From Lachnospiraceae bacterium (GTDB taxonomy: Bacteria; Bacillota; Clostridia; Lachnospirales; Lachnospiraceae): DNA of 44,683 nucleotides. Both the position numbers and the translations under genes were made by a program. The notes under the pieces are model-generated. The model saw only the letters and a list, made by a program, of their open reading frames with translations. It searched no databases and had not been told where the DNA came from. How positions within the stretch are numbered: position 1 is the stretch's first letter; each line of letters starts with the position of its first letter. Positions 2,068 through 32,620 of the stretch are shown here, one piece after another. The stretch lies in NCBI GenBank assembly GCA_020859905.1, contig JAJBVI010000160.1, positions 1 to 44,683 on the forward strand, read 5' to 3'.

Positions 2068-3255
2068 ATGAATAAAAGAGAAATTTCCGAAATCAAAAAG
2101 ACCTTTACGAAGGAACGCTGCTGCATCACCCGGCTGGCCGGCTGCTATGTGGACGCGGATAAGAATAAAGTCGTACAGTTCCGGGAATCTTTCCTCTCCC
2201 TCCCGGATGAGGAGTTGTATAAGTATCTCGACATTTTTCGCAAGGCACTGTCCGGAACCATTGGGAAAAACCTCCTGAACATGGAATTCCCTCTGGAACA
2301 GGAAGCCGCCGGCGGCACACAGGCGCGCCTGCTGCTGCTGCGCGACAGCGAATTAACGGACGATACCGTTCTGGAAGGTTTTTACGACCGAATCATTGAA
2401 AGCTGGTATCATCCGGAGAATTACCTGATTCTGCTGATCCACGGTGCCTACGACATCCCGGCCAAAACCTCGGACGGCATGGATCTGGATGACGCATCCG
2501 AGTATGTGTACCGTTTTGTCCTCTGCTGCCTCTGCCCGGTCGCGCTCTCCAAAGCGGGACTCTGTTACAATGCCGAGACGAACAGCATCGAGGACCGCAT
2601 CCGGGACTGGCTGGTGGATATGCCGGATCAGGCATTTCTGTTCCCGGCCTTCAATGATCGGAATACGGACATCCACAGCTTGCTGTACTACTCCAAAAAC
2701 ACAAAGGAGTTCTGTCCCGAGATCACGGAACAGCTCCTGGGCTGCGTACAGCCGCTCCCCGCTCCGCAGCAAAAGGAATCATTTCAGGCGATCCTCGAGG
2801 AGACCCTGGGCGACGCGTGTGTCTATGACACCGTCCGGAATATTCATGAAACGCTGAACGAAATGATAACGGAAAATCAGGACAGCCCTGCGCCGCTGGA
2901 GCTGGACAAACACGAAGTGCGCAGACTGCTTGCTCAAAACGGGGCGCCGGAGGAGAATCTGGAGCGCTTCGAGCAGCAGTATGATGAAGAAATCGGTGCG
3001 AATATGACTGTGATGGCAGATAATATTTCCGATACCCGGAAGTTTGAAGTCCGGACCCCGGAAGTTACCGTAAAAATAAACCCTGAGTACGCAGGAAGCG
3101 TAGAGACAAGGATCATCGACGGAATTCCCAGCCTGGTCATACCGCTGACAGGTGAAGTCGAAGTCAACGGGATTCATGTACGCCGGTCTGCGGAGGATCA
3201 GGAACTGTTCAGCAGCGATCCACGGAGAAACAGGGATGCAGAAAGCATTTTATGA
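2068..3255 (+). CDS. DUF4317 family protein
   Basis: A 395-residue cytoplasmic protein with no signal peptide or membrane segment. The N-terminal block (MNKREISEIKKTF, then RLAGCYVD and FLSLPDEELYKYLDIF) is the recognisable start of the DUF4317 family, common in Lachnospiraceae and of unknown function. The C-terminal third contains a run ending in VRTPEVTVKINPEYAG and a DGIPSLVIP motif. The start at 2068 has GGAG eight bases upstream. The 3' end overlaps the next gene by 20 bp, so the two are probably translationally coupled. No catalytic motif is visible to me and I assign no function. Confidence 0.8.
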   Translation: MNKREISEIKKTFTKERCCITRLAGCYVDADKNKVVQFRESFLSLPDEELYKYLDIFRKALSGTIGKNLLNMEFPLEQEAAGGTQARLLLLRDSELTDDTVLEGFYDRIIESWYHPENYLILLIHGAYDIPAKTSDGMDLDDASEYVYRFVLCCLCPVALSKAGLCYNAETNSIEDRIRDWLVDMPDQAFLFPAFNDRNTDIHSLLYYSKNTKEFCPEITEQLLGCVQPLPAPQQKESFQAILEETLGDACVYDTVRNIHETLNEMITENQDSPAPLELDKHEVRRLLAQNGAPEENLERFEQQYDEEIGANMTVMADNISDTRKFEVRTPEVTVKINPEYAGSVETRIIDGIPSLVIPLTGEVEVNGIHVRRSAEDQELFSSDPRRNRDAESIL

Positions 3256-3730
3256 CAGGCTCTCCCGCCCGTTCGAGGAAAATGAGGAAAAAAAGAAACG
3301 GCTGATCGCGGCAAACAGTGTTGTCACAAAAGCCTTTTATATCGCCTATCCGGTTCTGCTGGTCATTCTGGCGCTCACACGGGATGATCGCTTTTTCCGC
3401 GTCCTGCTTGTACCGCTGATCTCATTTGTGATTGTCAGCGTGTTCCGCAGGGTCTGCGGCGCCAGGCGTCCCTATGAGATCTGGGATGCCCCGCCTCTGA
3501 TCCGGAAAGATACCCGGGGGAACTCCTTTCCCAGCCGCCATGTCTTTTCCGTCTTCATGATCGCCATGGCAGCGGCATATGTCTGCCTGCCGGCCGCCAT
3601 TGCCATGATAGCCGCAGGCGTATTTCTCGCCGCGGTGCGCGTCATCATCCGTGTGCATTTCGTGAGAGATGTCGTCGCCGGAACCCTGATCGGCATTGGG
3701 CTGGGGCTGCTGGGTTTTTTTGTTCTGTAA
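3236..3730 (+). CDS. PAP2-family membrane phosphatase
   Basis: A 164-residue integral membrane protein of the phosphatidic acid phosphatase 2 superfamily, acting on lipid phosphates or undecaprenyl diphosphate at the membrane. The three PAP2 motifs are present in order: the RRP region (CGARRPYE), the PSRH motif (FPSRHVFS, a variant of PSGH), and RVHFVRDVVAG with the catalytic His and Asp. Several hydrophobic helices surround them. The start at 3236 is inside the DUF4317 coding end and has GGAG upstream; a longer in-frame start at 3152 has no ribosome site. The second motif has Arg where Gly is usual. The substrate cannot be told from sequence. Confidence 0.8.
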   Translation: MQKAFYDRLSRPFEENEEKKKRLIAANSVVTKAFYIAYPVLLVILALTRDDRFFRVLLVPLISFVIVSVFRRVCGARRPYEIWDAPPLIRKDTRGNSFPSRHVFSVFMIAMAAAYVCLPAAIAMIAAGVFLAAVRVIIRVHFVRDVVAGTLIGIGLGLLGFFVL

Positions 3731-9188: not shown

Positions 9189-11522
9189 TCAGGCCGTCGT
9201 CCGCTCTATATCAAAGATATTCTCAATCTGCCTCAGTTTCTCCGTCAGGGAAGTCAGCTCATCCTTTCCTTTTGTATGGAAGGAAACCGTGATCGTCGCC
9301 ACGTTCTTCTTGCTGGTGCGTGAATTAATCGTGACAATATCAATTCCCCGCTCCGTGAATATCTTAGAGATGTCTACCAGCAGGCCGGTCCGGTTATTCG
9401 CAAAAACCTTGAGTTCGGCCAGATAATTGCCGTGGCCGGTCTCCTCGTCCGCGGCGCCGGACTGCCACTCCGCGTTGATCAGGCGTTCCCGGTCCATCGT
9501 CGGAAGCCGGATGATATTCAGGCAGTCCGTGCGGTGGATAGACACGCCTCTTCCCCTCGTCACGAACCCGACGATCTCATCTCCCGGCACCGGGTTGCAG
9601 CATTTTGAAAAATGCACGGCCACGTCCGCAATACCCTGCACAATAATGCCGCTCTTTTTCTTTGCGGCATTCTCAGCGGAAACCTTTTCGCGGCTGTCGC
9701 CCGCGCCCTCCAGAACCTGCGTATCCGTTATCTTTGCCCGGAGTTCCTTTTTCCGCTCCTCTACCATACGGTTGATAATCTGAGCTTCCCGGAGTCCGCC
9801 GTGGCCCACAGCGGCCAGCACGGATTCCCAGTCCCGGAAGCCGTATTTCTTCTGTACCTTTTCCCGGTAGAAAGGTTTGTTGATCTCGGGAAGGCTGATC
9901 CCCTTCGCCTTACAGTAATTCACCAGCATATCCCGGCCGCGCTGGATATTCTCCTCCTTAAACTCATGACGGAACCACTGGTTTATCTTGTTGCGCGCCT
10001 GCGAGCTTTTCACGATATTCAGCCAGTCCCGGCTGGGACCTTTGGAATTCGCCGATGTCACAACCTCGATCTGGTCGCCGTTGCAGATCCTGTAATCGAT
10101 GGGAACGAGCTTTCCGTTGACCTTCGCGCCGACCATTTTATTGCCCACCGCACTGTGGATGCTGTAGGCAAAATCAATCGTCGTCGCCCCCATAGGCAGT
10201 GATTTTACATCACCGTTGGGTGTGAAACAAAATACCGAATCAGAAAACAGGTCGAGATCTGTCTTCAGCAGGCTCATAAACTCCTTATTGTCCGAAGTGC
10301 CCTGCTGCCACTCCAGGATCTGGCGCAGCCAGCTCAGCTTCGCCTCCTCACCGACAATGGCGTTGCCGTTATTCGCCTCTTTATACTTCCAATGTGCGGC
10401 GATACCATACTCCGCCGTGCGATGCATCTCCTCCGTCCGGATCTGGATCTCGAACGGCTTGCCTCCCGGTCCGATCAATGTCGTGTGGAGCGACTGGTAC
10501 ATATTCAGCTTCGGCATGGCGATATAATCCTTGAATCGGCCGGGAATCGGCGTGTAGTTCTCGTGGATGACGCCGAGCGCCGCGTAACAGTCCTTTACAT
10601 CCTCCACAATAATGCGGATCGCGAACAGATCATAGATCTGATCCAGGGTCTTGTTCTGATTCACCATCTTCTTATATATACTGAAAAAATGCTTGGCGCG
10701 GCCCATGATACTGGCACGAATCCCCGCCTCCAGGATGATCTGGCTTACCTCCGATACCAGAGAATTGATGTACTCCTCGCGGACGGACTTCCGCTCCGCC
10801 ACCTGTTTTACCAGATCATAATAAGCCTCCGGTTCCAGATATTTGAGAGCCAGGTCATCCAGTTCAATCTTTATTTTGGAAATGCCGAGACGCTGCGCAA
10901 TGGGAGCATAGATATCCATCGTCTCCCTCGCCTTTTCCCGCTGCTTCTCCAGCTTCATAAACTGCAGCGTCCGCATATTGTGAAGACGATCCGCCAGCTT
11001 GATGATGATGACGCGGATATCCTGCGCCATAGCCAGAAACATCTTGCGCAGGTTCTCCGCCTGCACCTCGATCTTGTCCGTATCATACGACAGCTGTCCC
11101 AGCTTCGTGACGCCGTCCACCAGAAGCGCGACATCCGAGCCGAACTGCTCAGTGATCTCATCATCCGTCAGAACCGTGTCCTCCACCACATCGTGCAGCA
11201 GACCTGCCACGATCGTCTCCTTATCCATCTCCAGCTCCGCCAGGATGATCGCCACGTACAGCGGATGGATGATATAGGGTTCGCCGGATTTCCGCGCCTG
11301 TTCTGCGTGGGCATCCCGGGCGATCCGGTATGCCCGCTCCACCATCGTCGTATCCTCGGACGGATGATATTTATGAATGCTGTCAATCAACTGTCCATAC
11401 AGCTCCTGCGGTTCCACAAAATCACGGATCTGCACAATCGGTTCCGGATCGGGTATCGCAATATTTTCCTTCTGCAGTGCACACTCATCTTTTGCCGCGG
11501 CAATTACTTTTTCTGTATCCAT
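9189..11522 (-). CDS. rel: Bifunctional (p)ppGpp synthetase/hydrolase (Rel)
   Basis: About 777 residues, full length for the long RelA/SpoT homologues that make and degrade the alarmone (p)ppGpp. Domains in order: HD hydrolase (HDVVEDT with the metal-binding His-Asp, residues about 95-105; KLADRLHNMRTL), synthetase (GRFKDYIAMPK, YQSLHTT), TGS (FTPNGDVKSLP, DFAYSIHSAVG), a zinc-finger/helical part (VHFSKCCNPVPGD, HRTDCLN) and a C-terminal ACT domain. The intact HD motif predicts an active hydrolase. The start is the ATG at 11522; a TTG 30 bases upstream is possible. A promoter is at 11614-11642. Confidence 0.95.
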   Translation of the reverse strand: MDTEKVIAAAKDECALQKENIAIPDPEPIVQIRDFVEPQELYGQLIDSIHKYHPSEDTTMVERAYRIARDAHAEQARKSGEPYIIHPLYVAIILAELEMDKETIVAGLLHDVVEDTVLTDDEITEQFGSDVALLVDGVTKLGQLSYDTDKIEVQAENLRKMFLAMAQDIRVIIIKLADRLHNMRTLQFMKLEKQREKARETMDIYAPIAQRLGISKIKIELDDLALKYLEPEAYYDLVKQVAERKSVREEYINSLVSEVSQIILEAGIRASIMGRAKHFFSIYKKMVNQNKTLDQIYDLFAIRIIVEDVKDCYAALGVIHENYTPIPGRFKDYIAMPKLNMYQSLHTTLIGPGGKPFEIQIRTEEMHRTAEYGIAAHWKYKEANNGNAIVGEEAKLSWLRQILEWQQGTSDNKEFMSLLKTDLDLFSDSVFCFTPNGDVKSLPMGATTIDFAYSIHSAVGNKMVGAKVNGKLVPIDYRICNGDQIEVVTSANSKGPSRDWLNIVKSSQARNKINQWFRHEFKEENIQRGRDMLVNYCKAKGISLPEINKPFYREKVQKKYGFRDWESVLAAVGHGGLREAQIINRMVEERKKELRAKITDTQVLEGAGDSREKVSAENAAKKKSGIIVQGIADVAVHFSKCCNPVPGDEIVGFVTRGRGVSIHRTDCLNIIRLPTMDRERLINAEWQSGAADEETGHGNYLAELKVFANNRTGLLVDISKIFTERGIDIVTINSRTSKKNVATITVSFHTKGKDELTSLTEKLRQIENIFDIERTTA

Positions 11523-23694: not shown

Positions 23695-26019
23695 ATGGAA
23701 CATCCTGACACATGGCCAAGCCAACGCGCCGGACAGGACCAGCGCACCGGGCAAGACCAACGCACTGGACAAAGCCAATGCACAGGGCAAAGCCAATGCG
23801 CAAGGCAGGATCAGCGCACTGGACAGGATCAACGCACCGAACAAGACAAACGCACTGAACAAGACAAACCATCACAGACAACGAAGCTGGATGAGCTGGA
23901 AGCCGCCGGTTTTATCGTGATCCCCATTAAGGGTGTCAGTATGCGGCCGCTGCTCTATACCTGGTCCTCCCATGTGCTGATCCGGAAACTGGATGGCAGG
24001 CCGAAAAAGAATGACGTGGTGCTGTATGTCCGTCCTGACGGCGTACAGGTGCTCCACCGTGTCCTGAGCTTTGACGGAGACGTGTGCCTCATCCGGGGCG
24101 ATAATACTTTTGCTGTGGAACGCGTACCGCTGTCTGCCGTGAAAGGCGTGATGGAGAGCTGCTGGCGCGGAAAAGGCAGGCTGCGGGGAGAACGGGAAAT
24201 CAGGACGACAGATAAGCTGTACCGCCTGTATGTCCGGTTCTGGAACCTCATTTATCCTTTCCGTCTGTTGAAACATAAAATTACCGCAGGCGTTGTTTCT
24301 GCGGGCAGACGCATCCTCGGCGACACTTCCATCGGCTGGGTCATGAAAATGGTGAGGGGCAATCTCGCCGGAATACTGCTGCTGACTGTATGTACGGGTG
24401 TGACGGCTTTCCTTTCGGTTATCCTCGTGCTTGTTATGCGTAATGCCATAGATTACGCTGTCGCCCTCGACAGGGGAAAGTTTCTTCAATGGGCCGGTGT
24501 ATTCCTCGGCATTATCATCATCCAGCTTATCCTTTACGCAGTTGTCCGGCAGGTGGACGAGTGGACAAGGGCATCGCTTGAAAACAGGCTGAAACAGCAC
24601 ACCTACGACAATATCCTGCACAGCGCCTACAGCGGTCTGAAAGCCTATCACACGGGAGAGCTTCAGAACCGCATGACCAGCGATGTGAAGATTGTCGCCG
24701 ACTACGCGACGGAGATTATCCCCGGCGTTGTGTCCATGGCGGTGCAGCTTGTCTGCGCACTGGTGATTCTGATGTTCCTTGACTGGCGGTTCGGCAGCAT
24801 CTTTCTCGTCGGGGGAATCGTGATGCTGTGCGTGACCTTCCTCTTCCGCCGCAGGATGAAACGGCTGCATAAAGAGGTGCAGGAGACGGACGGCAAACTC
24901 CGCTCCTGGCTTCAGGAATCCGTGGAAAGCCTCCTGATTCTGAAAGGCTTTGAGGCGGAGGAAATGGCATCGATCCGAACGGATGAAAAAACCTCCGCGC
25001 ACAGAAGAGCCCGCATGAAGAGGAGGACATTCTCAAATATATGTAACCTCGGGTTCGGCGGCGTGATGCGGGGCAGCTATCTCTTTGGTTTAGTCTGGTG
25101 CGGATTCGGCATACTGAACGGCACACTGACCTATGGAACACTGACAGCTGTGCTGCAGCTCATCAACCAGATCCGAAGCCCCTTTGCCAACATCTCCGGC
25201 TTCGTGCCGCAGTATTACAGTATGCTTGCGTCGGCGGAGCGGCTGATTGAGTTGGAGAAGCTGCCAAAAGAAAGCGGCTCAAAGGAGCTGCCCGGCTTCA
25301 CAGGGCTTCACGCAAAAGATTTAACCTTTATCTACGACGACGGCGAGGAAGAAGTCATCAGCGGCGCATCGTTTGATATAGAGAAAGGCGAGATCGTCGC
25401 ACTGACCGGTATTTCCGGCATCGGCAAGAGCACGCTGCTGAAAATACTGCTCGGCATTTACGCGCCTGTGTCCGGCAGACTGTACGCGGACGGAGAGATA
25501 GATATATCCCCGGCAACGCGCCGATGGTTCTCTTACGTTCCCCAGGGCAATATGCTGATGTCCGGCAGTATTTACGAGGCTGTGGACTTTCTGCACTCCG
25601 CTCCGTATACAAAGAAGCAGAAGACAAGGGTGGAGCAGGCATGCAAAATCGCCTGCGCGGACGAATTTATCAGAGAACTGCCGAACGGATATGACACGGT
25701 CCTCGGCGAAAAGGGCGCCGGGCTGTCCGAGGGGCAGATGCAGCGTATCGCCATAGCGAGGGCTGTGTACCGAAACGCGCCCGTGCTGCTCCTGGACGAA
25801 GCGACCTCCGCGCTGGACGAGGACACCGAGCGCAGGCTGTTGAAAAACCTGAAAGACATGGGCGGCCAGACGGTACTCATCGTAACGCACCGGCCGGCAG
25901 CCATGGAGATATGCGGCAAACGGCTGGTGTTTGAACACTCAAATATTACGGTTGAGGGAGTTATCAAAGAAGAGAAAAAGCCGGCCAATGGACAGAATGG
26001 AGGTAATCAGGATGTATGA
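23695..26019 (+). CDS. ABC exporter with N-terminal S24/S26-like peptidase domain
   Basis: A 774-residue fusion. Residues 1-60: nine 6-residue repeats of the GQDQRT type. About 62-170: a signal-peptidase-like domain with KGVSMRPLL (Ser in the S24/S26 position), then LHRVLSF and RGDN; His stands where type I enzymes have Lys, as in ER/archaeal-type signal peptidases. About 215-480: six-helix ABC exporter membrane domain. About 525-745: nucleotide-binding domain with Walker A GISGIGKST, signature LSEGQMQRIAIARA, Walker B VLLLDEATSALDE and switch VTHRP. Known bacteriocin exporters carry a C39 Cys peptidase instead; this S26-type fusion suggests export coupled to a different cleavage. Its 3' end overlaps the next gene by 8 bp. 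Confidence 0.85.
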   Translation: MEHPDTWPSQRAGQDQRTGQDQRTGQSQCTGQSQCARQDQRTGQDQRTEQDKRTEQDKPSQTTKLDELEAAGFIVIPIKGVSMRPLLYTWSSHVLIRKLDGRPKKNDVVLYVRPDGVQVLHRVLSFDGDVCLIRGDNTFAVERVPLSAVKGVMESCWRGKGRLRGEREIRTTDKLYRLYVRFWNLIYPFRLLKHKITAGVVSAGRRILGDTSIGWVMKMVRGNLAGILLLTVCTGVTAFLSVILVLVMRNAIDYAVALDRGKFLQWAGVFLGIIIIQLILYAVVRQVDEWTRASLENRLKQHTYDNILHSAYSGLKAYHTGELQNRMTSDVKIVADYATEIIPGVVSMAVQLVCALVILMFLDWRFGSIFLVGGIVMLCVTFLFRRRMKRLHKEVQETDGKLRSWLQESVESLLILKGFEAEEMASIRTDEKTSAHRRARMKRRTFSNICNLGFGGVMRGSYLFGLVWCGFGILNGTLTYGTLTAVLQLINQIRSPFANISGFVPQYYSMLASAERLIELEKLPKESGSKELPGFTGLHAKDLTFIYDDGEEEVISGASFDIEKGEIVALTGISGIGKSTLLKILLGIYAPVSGRLYADGEIDISPATRRWFSYVPQGNMLMSGSIYEAVDFLHSAPYTKKQKTRVEQACKIACADEFIRELPNGYDTVLGEKGAGLSEGQMQRIAIARAVYRNAPVLLLDEATSALDEDTERRLLKNLKDMGGQTVLIVTHRPAAMEICGKRLVFEHSNITVEGVIKEEKKPANGQNGGNQDV
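23713..23874. repeat. Nine 18-bp in-frame tandem units at the 5' end of the exporter gene
   Basis: Consecutive 18-bp units with consensus close to GGACAGGACCAGCGCACC encode 6-residue GQDQRT-type repeats, diverging to EQDKRT and GQSQCT. The first unit (23713-23730) is degenerate. Confidence 0.9.
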
Positions 26020-28556: not shown

Positions 28557-28712
28557 GATGAGAACTGTATTGACACAGACAAACCGGAAGCAGTCACAGA
28601 CAACTTGTTCCCCGGACTGACGCCCGCCTGTGATATGAGGCGGTCTTTCCGGAGACGTACGGTCACTGACAGCCTGTTTTCCAGTACTGATACTCACCCG
28701 AGGAATACCGAC

Positions 28713-29981
28713 ATGAATATCGTCCAGGTCTATGGAAACATCATAAAAAAATATGCGCCGGACCACCCGCGCACCGCCCTGCGCATCATACAGCTCGGCT
28801 TTATGCTGGAGAAGTTCCGCTCGGGACATCTCGCGAACAAAGAGATTCCACCGGCCTGGCGCTACCTGAACCATTACGCGGTGAGCGAGGTGCAGCGTGC
28901 GCTCCGGCATCCGAAGCGCACCGTCTGGGCCAATCTCTTCGCGCCGGTGGAGATCCTGCAGTGTTTCGGCGTACACACACTTTCCATCGAATGCCTGTCG
29001 TCCTTCTTATCCGGGATGGGCACGGAGGACTATTTTTTAGACTTTGCGGAAAATGAGGGCATTGCGCCGACGCTCTGTTCCTACCACAAGAATTTTATCG
29101 GAGCCATCGACAGCGGCATCATCCCGCCCGCCGCGTTCGCCGTGACGACGTCCATTATCTGCGACGGCAACCTGTGTACGTTCCGGCACCTGGCGGAGAG
29201 GCACCGGGTGCCGGCGTTTCTGCTGGATATCCCGGAACAGTATTCCCCGGAAGCCGAGGACTATGTGGTCGAACAGCTCCGCGAACTGATCGCGCAGCTG
29301 GAGCATACGTTTCACAAAAAGCTCGATTATGACATGCTCTCCGAAATACTGCGGCGGGAAAACGAATCCAAGGCGAGCTACGACAGAACCCTGAAAATGA
29401 TGCGGACAAAGGCGTACCCTGCCACACTGACCCTGCATATGTACCTGCTGTTCGCCAACCACCTGAACATCGGCACACCGGAGATCCTGCGGTTTTACCG
29501 GCAGATGGAAGAGGAAGTGACCGCCGCGCCCGAATTCCACGGGACGAACATCTTCTGGGTCCACCTGCTGCCCTGGTATCAGCAGACCCTGAAATCCTGT
29601 TTTAACCTCAATCCGGATTACCAGATTCAGGGCATCGAGATGAGCCTGGACTACACGGATCCGCTGGACACCGGCCATCCGCTCGAAGCGCTGGCCAGAA
29701 AAATGATCTGCAATATTTATAATGGCTCTTATGAGCGGAAAGCAGACCTTGTGCAGTCTGTCGTGCAGGACATCCGGCCGGACGGCGTCATCAATTTCTG
29801 CCACTGGGGCTGCAAGCAGTCCGCCGGCGGCGCGATGATATTAAAGGAAAAAATGCAGGAGATCGGCATGCCCTTCCTCATCCTGGACGGGGACGGGATG
29901 GACCGCCGCAACAGCCACGACGGACAGATCAGGACGCGCGTCGAAGCATTTCTTGAGATGATCCGCCGCAAAGAAAATTAA
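28713..29981 (+). CDS. 2-hydroxyacyl-CoA dehydratase D-family subunit
   Basis: A 422-residue member of the HgdA/HgdB-BcrB/BcrC superfamily. These oxygen-sensitive proteins hold a [4Fe-4S] cluster and dehydrate 2-hydroxyacyl-CoA by a ketyl-radical mechanism after ATP-driven reduction by an activase. Candidate cluster or active-site Cys occur in SIECLSSFLSG (about residue 95), APTLCSYHKNFIG (about 123), SIICDGNLC (about 150) and NFCHWGCKQSAGG (about 365). The C-terminal TRVEAFLE motif recurs in the partner gene. Start at 28713 after GAGGAA. The partner subunit and activase are encoded at 30593, beyond an inserted toxin-antitoxin pair. The substrate cannot be deduced. Confidence 0.85.
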   Translation: MNIVQVYGNIIKKYAPDHPRTALRIIQLGFMLEKFRSGHLANKEIPPAWRYLNHYAVSEVQRALRHPKRTVWANLFAPVEILQCFGVHTLSIECLSSFLSGMGTEDYFLDFAENEGIAPTLCSYHKNFIGAIDSGIIPPAAFAVTTSIICDGNLCTFRHLAERHRVPAFLLDIPEQYSPEAEDYVVEQLRELIAQLEHTFHKKLDYDMLSEILRRENESKASYDRTLKMMRTKAYPATLTLHMYLLFANHLNIGTPEILRFYRQMEEEVTAAPEFHGTNIFWVHLLPWYQQTLKSCFNLNPDYQIQGIEMSLDYTDPLDTGHPLEALARKMICNIYNGSYERKADLVQSVVQDIRPDGVINFCHWGCKQSAGGAMILKEKMQEIGMPFLILDGDGMDRRNSHDGQIRTRVEAFLEMIRRKEN

Positions 29982-30047: not shown

Positions 30048-30317
30048 ATGGCAAATGCTTGTAATGTTAATTTCAAACTGGACTCAGATGTAAAAAAAAG
30101 TATGGAGCAGGTTTGTTCTGAACTCGGTCTTTCCATGAGTGCGGCGTTTACGATTTTTGCAAAAAAAGTCGGTCGTGAAAAACGAATTCCCTTTGATGTA
30201 TCCATAGATCCGTTTTACAGCGAAGACAATCTTGCGCTGCCTGAGAAACGGATCCGAGATGTGCAAACAGGTAAAACCACCTTACATGAACACGACTTAA
30301 TCCGGGAGGATGAATGA
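30048..30317 (+). CDS. RelB/DinJ-family antitoxin
   Basis: An 89-residue protein with an N-terminal ribbon-helix-helix DNA-binding domain (NVNFKLDSDVKKSMEQVCSELGLSMSAAFTIFAKKV, in pieces across residues 5-42), the classic RelB/DinJ signature, and a flexible C-terminal part that would wrap the toxin. It normally neutralises its toxin and represses the cassette promoter. Start at 30048 with AAAGGAGG upstream. Its stop overlaps the start of the toxin frame by 4 bp (ATGA), the usual coupled arrangement. Since the toxin frame is disrupted, the antitoxin may now be a free repressor. Confidence 0.9.
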   Translation: MANACNVNFKLDSDVKKSMEQVCSELGLSMSAAFTIFAKKVGREKRIPFDVSIDPFYSEDNLALPEKRIRDVQTGKTTLHEHDLIREDE

Positions 30318-30576
30318 GAAAAACATGGCATGATGAAGCAGGGGAGGAATACCTTTACTGGCAGACTCAGGACAGGAAAACCCTGAGAAAAATCAACCAG
30401 CTTTTGCGCGATATAGACAGAAACGGATATCAATGTTCAGGGAAACCGGAAGCTCTGTCCGGTAATCTCACCGGTTTTTGGAGCGTTCGCATTGATAAAA
30501 AAACAGGATTGTATTTCGAGTTATCGATGAAACCATTGAAATTTATCAATGCGGTTCACATTACCAGGAAAAATAA
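30314..30576 (+). pseudogene. YoeB/Txe-family toxin with frameshift in an A-tract
   Basis: The first 60 or so codons encode a RelE-superfamily mRNA interferase of the Txe/YoeB type (KTWHDEAGEEYLYWQ, LRKINQLLRDI, SGKPEALSGNLTGFWSVRID). At about 30498-30504 a run of seven A breaks the frame. Reading one base back restores the rest of a standard YoeB end (NRIVFRVIDETIEIYQC, then GSHY) and a stop at 30574-30576. So one A appears lost from an original run of eight. It may be an inactive pseudogene, a sequencing error, or a gene expressed by -1 slippage or transcriptional slippage on the A-tract. In the unshifted frame it runs on into the next gene, which has its own start. Confidence 0.85.
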
Positions 30577-30592
30577 TATACGGAGAAAGTCT

Positions 30593-32620
30593 ATGATTAT
30601 GTACATGTGTAAATATGCACCGATCGAGATCATCGAAGCTTTCGGCAACACGGTGGTCCTGACGGAACCGCACGTCACAAATTTTACGCAGGCGGACACA
30701 CTGATGCATCCGAACATGTGCTCGTTTGTAAAAGCGGTGCTCGAGGATTTTGAAAACCGTAATTATGAAGGCATGCTTTTTACCGGCTGCTGCGACAGTT
30801 CGCGGCGGCTGTTTGACACGCTGAGGCGCCTCCATCCGGAGAAGTTTTTCTTCTGCTTCGACCTGCCGCGGAAGGTGAATGCAATCACTGTTTCTCTCTA
30901 TGTGAACCAGATCGAACAGCTGATCCGAGAGTATACCGCTTTTTCCGGGAAATCATTCGATCCGGACTGGCTTGCAAAAAAGTGCAGCCATGAGTTTGAC
31001 ATGCAGATCCGGAAAAAGGAACTCATCAAGGCCGGAAAGATCCCGAAGAAAGAGAGCGACTTAAGAATCTGCCTGGCGGGCGCCCGGCCCGGCTCCGAGA
31101 TCAAACAGCTGATCACGGATCACGGGGCAGAGATCGCTCTCGACCTGACCTGCACCGGCATCTGCCGGGAATACCGGGTGGATGAAACGAATGTGCTGCA
31201 CAGCTACGCCAACAGCCTGCTGAACCAGCTTCCGTGCATGCGGATGCATCAGACAGACAGCCGGAAACAGCGCGTCCTCGACATGGCCGGCGATCTGGAC
31301 GGCATCATCTACCACACCGTGAAGTTCTGCGATATTTACTCCTATGAGTATGCTGACATGAAAGCGCATGCGGGGCTTCCCATGGTAAAGCTGGAGACCG
31401 ATGCCACCAGTCAGTGCGCCGGGCAGATTTTAACCAGAGTCGAAGCCTTTCTGGAATCCTTGCGGACACGCAGGGGAACTCAGACAACCGGGCATACCCC
31501 AGACGGATACGGGAAACCCACCCGACAAAATCAAGACGCCCGGGACATGCCCGGAAACGCCCCCGGCAGCCGTAACGCCGATGACAGCACAGGCTCCGGC
31601 AAAACATCTGCCAATACAGCCTGTGGAACCTGCTCAGGAAATGTCACGGACACGTCCTGTGCGTTCTGCACGGAAAATGTCACGGACACGTCCTGTGCGT
31701 TCTGCCGCGGCGAAGACAGCTCCGATGTTCCCCGCCTGTCCGGGGAGGATGTAAAAGCGGATCTGGCCGAACACATGGGAAACGAATTTCCCCACAGTAA
31801 AAAAGGAGACCACCCTATGTATATTATGGGAATCGACAGCGGATCCACCTCCACAAATGCTGTCATCATCAACGAAAAACAGGAGATTCTTTCCTGGGCA
31901 GTCATCCGCACAGGAGCCAAGAGCGGAGAGAGTGCAGAACGGATTCTGCAGGAAATCCTGAACCGGACACAGCTGCAAAGAGAAGATCTGAACCTGATCG
32001 TGTCCACCGGATACGGCCGCGTCAGCATTCCGTTTGCAGACAAAAATGTGACGGAGATCAGCTGCCACGGCAAAGGCGCGCACTTTCTGAATCCCGCTGT
32101 CCGCACGATTCTGGATATCGGCGGTCAGGACAGCAAGGCCATCCGCTTAAACAAACATGGTGATGTGATTGATTTTGTCATGAACGACAAATGCGCCGCC
32201 GGGACCGGCCGTTTTCTGGAAATGATGGCGCGTACTCTGGAGATCAGCATCGATGAACTCGGTCCGCTCTCCCTGCAGTCAAAGGAAAATGTGGAGATCA
32301 GCAGCATGTGCTCGGTCTTTGCCGAGTCAGAGGTCATCTCCCTGATCGCGCAAAATAAAGAAACCGCGGACATCGCCCACGGCATTCACAAAGCCATCGC
32401 AGGAAAAGCGATTTCTCTGTTAAAGAGAGTCGGCCTCGAAAAAGAATTTATGATGACCGGCGGCGTGGCAAAAAACCCCGGCGTTGTAAAAGTGCTGGAG
32501 GAACAGCTCGACGCCCCCCTCTATATCTATGAACAGCCTGAGATTGTCGGCGCCCTCGGCGCTGCCCTGTTCGGGCTGGAAAGCCTGAAGCCAGGAGAAA
32601 AATCATTCGGCGCGCTATAG
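30593..32620 (+). CDS. 2-hydroxyacyl-CoA dehydratase subunit fused to its ATP-dependent activase
   Basis: A 675-residue fusion. Residues about 1-290 are a second dehydratase D-family subunit (Cys in FTGCCDSS, DLTCTGIC, VKFCDIYSYEY; ends in QILTRVEAFLESL). About 290-405 is a low-complexity linker with three CxxC motifs (CGTC and two CAFC in 12-residue units). From Met409 (31817) it is a BcrA/HgdC-type activase of the ASKHA fold: GIDSGSTSTNAV, IGGQDSKAI, the cluster Cys in DKCAAGTGRFLE and SSMCSVFAESE, and TGGVAKN. Start at 30593 after CGGAG. The internal ATG at 31817 has its own AAAAGGAG, so a separate activase could also be made. Such subunits are usually separate genes. Confidence 0.85.
   Translation: MIMYMCKYAPIEIIEAFGNTVVLTEPHVTNFTQADTLMHPNMCSFVKAVLEDFENRNYEGMLFTGCCDSSRRLFDTLRRLHPEKFFFCFDLPRKVNAITVSLYVNQIEQLIREYTAFSGKSFDPDWLAKKCSHEFDMQIRKKELIKAGKIPKKESDLRICLAGARPGSEIKQLITDHGAEIALDLTCTGICREYRVDETNVLHSYANSLLNQLPCMRMHQTDSRKQRVLDMAGDLDGIIYHTVKFCDIYSYEYADMKAHAGLPMVKLETDATSQCAGQILTRVEAFLESLRTRRGTQTTGHTPDGYGKPTRQNQDARDMPGNAPGSRNADDSTGSGKTSANTACGTCSGNVTDTSCAFCTENVTDTSCAFCRGEDSSDVPRLSGEDVKADLAEHMGNEFPHSKKGDHPMYIMGIDSGSTSTNAVIINEKQEILSWAVIRTGAKSGESAERILQEILNRTQLQREDLNLIVSTGYGRVSIPFADKNVTEISCHGKGAHFLNPAVRTILDIGGQDSKAIRLNKHGDVIDFVMNDKCAAGTGRFLEMMARTLEISIDELGPLSLQSKENVEISSMCSVFAESEVISLIAQNKETADIAHGIHKAIAGKAISLLKRVGLEKEFMMTGGVAKNPGVVKVLEEQLDAPLYIYEQPEIVGALGAALFGLESLKPGEKSFGAL
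31638..31704. repeat. 36-bp in-frame duplication encoding CxxC units
   Basis: Copies 31638-31668 and 31674-31704 are identical over 31 bases (AAATGTCACGG...GCGTTCTGC) and encode NVTDTSCAFC twice. Confidence 0.92.

Follow-up and report, generated by a model that had tools for sequence, protein, structure and literature searches.

A conserved fusion joins a predicted double-cubane reductase subunit to an activase and carries a second, internal start

A gene in a Lachnospiraceae contig (JAJBVI010000160.1; the stretch of 44,683 nucleotides that was analysed is called the window) appears to encode a dehydratase-family (HGD-D) subunit and an activase as one polypeptide, which raises the questions of whether this fusion is genuine, what kind of enzyme it belongs to, and whether the activase is also made by itself. 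The frame runs uninterrupted from an ATG at 30593 to a stop codon at 32618-32620 and specifies 675 residues, laid out as an HGD-D half (residues 1-294), a linker predicted to be disordered (295-408) and a BcrAD/BadF activase (409-675). Domain searches with Pfam and NCBIfam matched the N-terminal half to HGD-D and residues 413-661 to BcrAD_BadFG. The cut-off of PF06050 (HGD-D superfamily; 28.4) was passed by the fused half with a score of 151 and by the product of the upstream partner gene with 236, and the activase domain scored 227.8 with PF01869 (cut-off 31.5) and 273 with TIGR00241 (cut-off 125). The cluster cysteines C534 and C573 of the activase, as well as its nucleotide motifs, are invariant in the fused proteins. 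Coordinates of these and other features are collected in Table 1.

Table 1. Features of the alpha gene and of the fused gene, in window positions
Feature	Position	Strand	Basis
Gene for the alpha subunit, an HGD-D protein of BzdO/HadB type with three conserved cysteines; the mechanical ORF begins at 28605 and the ATG is probably that at 28713	28713..29981	+	
Fused gene: beta-type HGD-D half, linker and activase, 675 aa	30593..32620	+	ORF, Pfam/NCBIfam domain matches
Beta-type half, residues 1-294	30593..31474	+	Alignments
Linker, residues 295-408, mostly disordered by prediction, varying among relatives	31475..31816	+	Alignments, AlphaFold
CGTC motif	31622..31633	+	Window sequence
First copy of the repeat of 31 exact bp (36-bp period), with CAFC (31658-31669) at its end	31639..31669	+	
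Second copy of the repeat, with CAFC (31694-31705) at its end; judged by its place with respect to the RL motif, this is the CxxC that relatives also have	31675..31705	+	
Conserved motif of the genus, here RLSGEDVKAD (residues 381-390); the helix predicted at 384-396 overlaps it	31733..31762	+	Alignment, AlphaFold
GGAG, core of the activase's internal ribosome site	31805..31808	+	Window sequence
Activase (archerase) domain with its own ATG; C534 and C573 are the invariant cluster cysteines	31817..32620	+	Profiles, alignment

The mechanical ORF of the fused gene begins at 30314 and would give 768 residues, its first part being a YoeB-like toxin frame behind a relB gene. A relB-yoeB toxin-antitoxin pair lies between the alpha gene and the fused gene at 30048-30590, and the yoeB frame of the window breaks and then runs into the fused gene. 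In the nearest relative, locus L085, the same pair occupies the same place, and there yoeB is intact and ends just before the start of the fused gene; 30593 is therefore the right start. A fusion extending back to 30314 was rejected, as the upstream part is the YoeB-like frame running in by accident.

The first-pass annotation of this DNA had reported the two halves in one continuous frame, had proposed a search for the same fusion in other Clostridia, and had pointed to a sequencing error removing a linker stop codon as what would undo the claim. The fusion was found across the genus, the family sample and the phylum sample, and both halves lie in a single frame in 58 of the 58 intact loci analysed. 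The continuous frame is thereby borne out, and a sequencing error or lost stop as its source was rejected. The first half is carried by all 20 genomes of the genus and by 55 of 397 sampled genomes of the family, and each of its complete close homologues in genus and family has an open frame of 550-700 aa that reaches through the activase. In the phylum sample, matches were found in 30 of 398 genomes, and nearly all strong matches were frames of 539-605 residues. One member of the genus (G004) is split; a run of Ns lies at the junction, and a truly split gene was rejected in favour of this assembly gap. In locus L234 of genome G654, about 1 kb of other sequence (2604-3615) interrupts the beta part of the fused gene.

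The frame might still be accidental, with separate beta and activase proteins alone being used. This reading draws on the complete genome G789, in which the gene (L231, about 2650) is split by a single-base difference in a run of A at the linker compared to its fused sister G829 (L232), while the activase start is kept in both. Against it, the frame stays open in every intact locus although the linkers span about 10 to 130 residues, and the linker's dN/dS, much higher than that of the domains, stays under 1 (about 0.35-0.9) in each of the 11 pairs tested. Some fused genes have no internal start from which a separate activase could be made, and an independent fusion of reverse order exists in Planctomycetes. 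We consider an accidental frame extremely unlikely; the fusion of a dehydratase-family subunit with an activase is genuine, far beyond chance.

By the criteria used, an alpha-subunit gene is adjacent upstream in 55 of 58 fused loci, commonly with an overlap of 4-7 nt. In the window and in L085 the relB-yoeB insert puts about 610 nt between it and the fused gene. No other neighbour family recurs beside the pair in more than 17 of 58 loci, so the alpha and fused genes are a stand-alone two-gene unit with no conserved pathway around them, and a pathway assignment from gene neighbours was rejected. Elsewhere, contig C214 of genome G000 carries at 9302-10414 a second, unfused activase adjoining another HGD-D gene of the same genome. 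The window also holds an ABC-transporter-like gene (23695-26019) with an N-terminus of 18-bp repeats and seemingly a signal-peptidase-like stretch, as well as several further tandem repeats.

To which branch of the superfamily the pair belongs can be read from its cysteines. In the BzdNO structure, six cysteines of BzdN hold a double cubane and three cysteines of BzdO hold a [4Fe-4S] cluster (PMC11971306). The C-terminal ligands of BzdN were placed at C263, C293 and C327, positions deduced from the named residues Arg267, Arg290, Gln324 and His330 (PMC11971306), and they align with C187, C215 and C246 of the fused half, while the three N-terminal ligands of BzdN and DCCP align with C6, C43 and C67. 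All six double-cubane ligands of these two proteins are thus matched, and in the alignment of fused proteins the six cysteines are invariant in 58 of 58, as is C66. E. coli YjiM has all six, whereas HadC of C. difficile (L213) lacks the first and fourth and has Pro and Ala instead, a reduced set not seen in the fused proteins. The partner alpha subunit has three conserved cysteines, as in BzdO and HadB, and reading of the alignments places Asn where BzdO has His131.

Predicted folds gave a similar assignment. In the VIA-align fold list, which covered the activase most heavily and also matched the beta half, the activase matched HgdC (Z 35.5), the beta half matched HadC (Z 26.1) and BzdN (Z 25.5), and the predicted fold of the partner matches HadB, MbdO and BzdO. 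Both sequence and predicted fold place the fused half with the beta (BzdN/DCCP/HadC) kind and the partner with the alpha (BzdO/HadB) kind. The NCBIfam cut-offs of the named systems were not reached, with scores of 89 versus 350 for the DCCP equivalog NF040772, 37 versus 453.8 for bzdN, 54 versus 448.6 for bzdO and 232 versus 380.2 for bzdQ; those of HadB and HadC were not approached. A second, different activase subunit, by which class I benzoyl-CoA reductases are recognized, was not found at the locus, which has one activase coding region.

Could the pair be an ordinary (R)-2-hydroxyacyl-CoA dehydratase (HAD) of amino-acid fermentation, with its activator fused by chance and a single electron injected once and recycled? 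Membership of the HGD-D family, the HadB- and HadC-like folds, and named relatives that are anaerobes, many of them Lachnospiraceae, would all agree with this. The two ligand-type cysteines that HadC lacks and the fused proteins keep speak against it, as do the HadB and HadC profile scores, the absence of a fermentation operon, given how rarely neighbour families recur beside the pair, and a tree of 65 beta sequences that sets the HAD subunits, together with those of two-activase benzoyl-CoA reductases, in another clade (support 98/88). We regard an ordinary dehydratase as rather improbable. With six cysteines in all 58 fused proteins, two of them missing from HadC, and three in the partner, the balance favours a double-cubane reductase like BzdNO over a 2-hydroxyacyl-CoA dehydratase, and the beta half is predicted to hold a double-cubane [8Fe-9S] cluster, a cluster type read solely from the aligned cysteines. 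Of the earlier label "dehydratase subunit", the family stands and the dehydratase identity probably does not, since the six-cysteine pattern is that of double-cubane proteins and not of HAD beta subunits. For the same reason the model that went with it, a briefly docking activase delivering a single electron as in 2-hydroxyacyl-CoA dehydratases, is probably not applicable; a reductase that requires ATP-driven electrons in each catalytic cycle would be a better match.

The linker between the halves had drawn attention for three CxxC motifs, CGTC and two CAFC, and for the idea that this array might bind a metal or cluster. The motifs are present (Table 1), although the CAFC pair, described as exact 36-bp units, has a period of 36 bp with 31 identical bases. 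The window's linker holds six cysteines and three CxxC, one at the place shared with relatives, one from the duplication of 36-bp period, and CGTC upstream. Members of the genus mostly have one CxxC per linker, three of them have no linker cysteine, and no CxxC was found in the linkers of other genera of the sample. The genus linkers, otherwise unalignable, share a CxxC followed 8-12 residues on by RL[ST]xx[DE][IV]xxD; a scan of 3.35 million translated residues found this combination of CxxC and RL motif (RLxxxDIxxD) in 16 genus loci only. AlphaFold gave very low confidence to residues 301-379, which hold all three CxxC, and the helix that it predicted at 384-396 lies over the RL motif.

The number of cysteines in the window's linker and the genus-specific pairing of CxxC with RLxxxDIxxD are what an iron-sulfur or other metal site relaying electrons from the activase to the beta cluster could build on. 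Such a relay is nonetheless very unlikely. The single CxxC of most relatives, its absence from linkers of some genus members and of other genera, the predicted disorder and the origin of the extra copy by tandem duplication argue that the array is not a conserved metal site, and it was rejected as a general feature of these proteins. The short CxxC/RL motif might serve this genus in docking or in redox chemistry.

The first-pass annotation had also noted a ribosome site and ATG of the activase's own within the fused gene, and both are indeed there, with a GGAG core ahead of the ATG at 31817. All 58 genes of the first (family) sample have, ahead of the activase, an in-frame ATG whose Shine-Dalgarno (SD) energy is at least as strong as -5 kcal/mol, compared to a background of 18% of equal-length windows in the two domains. 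The mean ribosome-site energy is -8.8 at the activase methionine (54 genes), -8.8 at the genes' own starts and -2.9 at other methionines, and the four genes without an activase methionine have another ATG with a ribosome site further upstream in the linker. These energies are partly due to the lysine, glycine and glutamate codons found there, the shuffled mean being -6.7 to -6.8. Synonymous shuffles (40 rows, mostly one per genus) gave z = -6.0 at the internal start versus -1.6 for other methionines, numbers that, like the other statistics of this start, serve as guides because the rows are related by descent. In a wider named set, an internal start with a strong ribosome site occurs in 22 of 36 genes; in at least three fused genes of this set the linker offers no codon that could serve as a start, and in several others no such codon has a good ribosome site.

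Such genes, together with reverse fusions of Planctomycetes that have no strong ribosome site at the beta start, are in favour of a reading in which the full-length protein alone matters and the internal site is a relic of a once separate gene or a by-product of a linker end rich in Lys, Gly and Glu. We judge this to be unlikely, as every gene of the family sample keeps the site though the linkers are otherwise unalignable, including the four whose start lies further upstream, and the shuffles point the same way. Fused and free activase are thus probably both made, and the earlier suggestion of a free product besides the fused one gains support from the conserved start signal. Where the wider genes have no internal start, the fused protein presumably works alone, so that the free activase would be an addition kept mainly by Lachnospiraceae. 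The idea that all of these systems need free activase was rejected, since genes without a start codon in the linker cannot depend on it.

In the 65-sequence tree, fusions with the activase behind beta group together (support 78/84), in a set that takes in Bacillota, Actinomycetota (Coriobacteriales, Olsenella), Spirochaetota and Chloroflexota. In two Coriobacteriales/Olsenella loci (L179 and L181) the fused gene is preceded by a tandem pair of alpha-type genes. In Planctomycetes, Scalindua included (L171, L176, L183 and L167), the order is reversed, with the activase first and then beta, and a separate alpha gene follows the fusion in L176 and L183. The Planctomycetes fusion, with its opposite order, is independent, so at least two joinings of this pair of partners took place. 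Three separate genes are found in archaeal, syntrophic and other relatives.

From the observed fusion and its conservation, the cysteine patterns, the predicted domain folds and the conserved internal start signal, we propose, with a probability of roughly 60%, a two-gene, ATP-driven iron-sulfur enzyme of the benzoyl-CoA reductase/2-hydroxyacyl-CoA dehydratase superfamily, in which a double-cubane beta subunit is tethered to its activase and a free activase comes from the second start. The upstream gene would provide the alpha subunit with a three-cysteine [4Fe-4S] active site, and the fused gene a beta subunit with the predicted [8Fe-9S] double cubane, connected by a floppy linker to the activase. 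An activase dimer sharing one [4Fe-4S] cluster would use ATP to drive electrons into the adjacent beta cluster, which would hand them on to the active site in alpha. Since the beta subunit is what the activase reduces in known systems (PMC11574389), a fusion of these two fits the electron path, and tethering to the electron-accepting subunit would keep the activase at hand for every turnover. Free activase could pair with the fused activase domain to form an alpha-beta-activase-activase assembly like that of class I benzoyl-CoA reductases. The types of cluster, the route of the electrons, the activity as a reductase, the two products and the pairing of activases are inferred from the observations named first. 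A bolder version is tentative, with the odds leaning against it: an unstudied double-cubane reductase, widespread in gut Lachnospiraceae, in which one gene gives tethered and free activase, rebuilding the four-part class I layout from two genes, and which would reduce a low-potential substrate.

Very few enzymes are known to contain double-cubane clusters. The archetypal DCCPs have no known biological function (PMC11971306). The present family places a predicted double-cubane subunit, tethered to an activase, in many gut bacteria, cultured ones included, which opens the cofactor's role to tests beyond aromatic degradation. The tether indicates which subunit would receive the electrons, and the conserved second start offers a simple genetic handle on activase stoichiometry.

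No activase-dehydratase fusion was found described in the open-access literature, to which the search was confined. A permanent complex of activase and partner is known for BCR- and MBR-type reductases. BzdNOPQ and the class I benzoyl-CoA reductases resemble the present pair in being heterodimers of a six-cysteine BzdN and a three-cysteine BzdO served by an ATP-driven activase (PMC11971306), and MbdQ is closest in sequence to the activase domain among solved structures. They differ in having two separate, different activase subunits, whereas the present pair has a single activase, joined to its BzdN-like subunit, has no conserved neighbours and does not reach the BzdN, BzdO and BzdQ cut-offs. 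DCCP/DCCR (E. coli YjiM/YjiL) shares the six cluster cysteines and an activase partner; DCCP, however, is a homodimer with a double cubane in each subunit and a separate activase, in contrast to a heterodimer with a three-cysteine partner and a fused activase. HadBC/HadI and HgdAB/HgdC belong to the same superfamily, with the same folds and activase family, but their activators are separate and HadC lacks two of the six cysteines. Large Firmicutes frames of about 1300-1480 aa likewise hold an activase domain within a larger polypeptide, of different size. A second in-frame start giving an extra copy of the C-terminal part is described for Cas11b and the short form of SpaO (PMC11899642, PMC13059759); these proteins are unrelated and their second products are experimentally shown, whereas that of the fused gene is predicted. 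Set beside these systems, the locus is a conserved fusion within a known superfamily, better described as a predicted double-cubane reductase subunit tethered to an activase, with a conserved second start.
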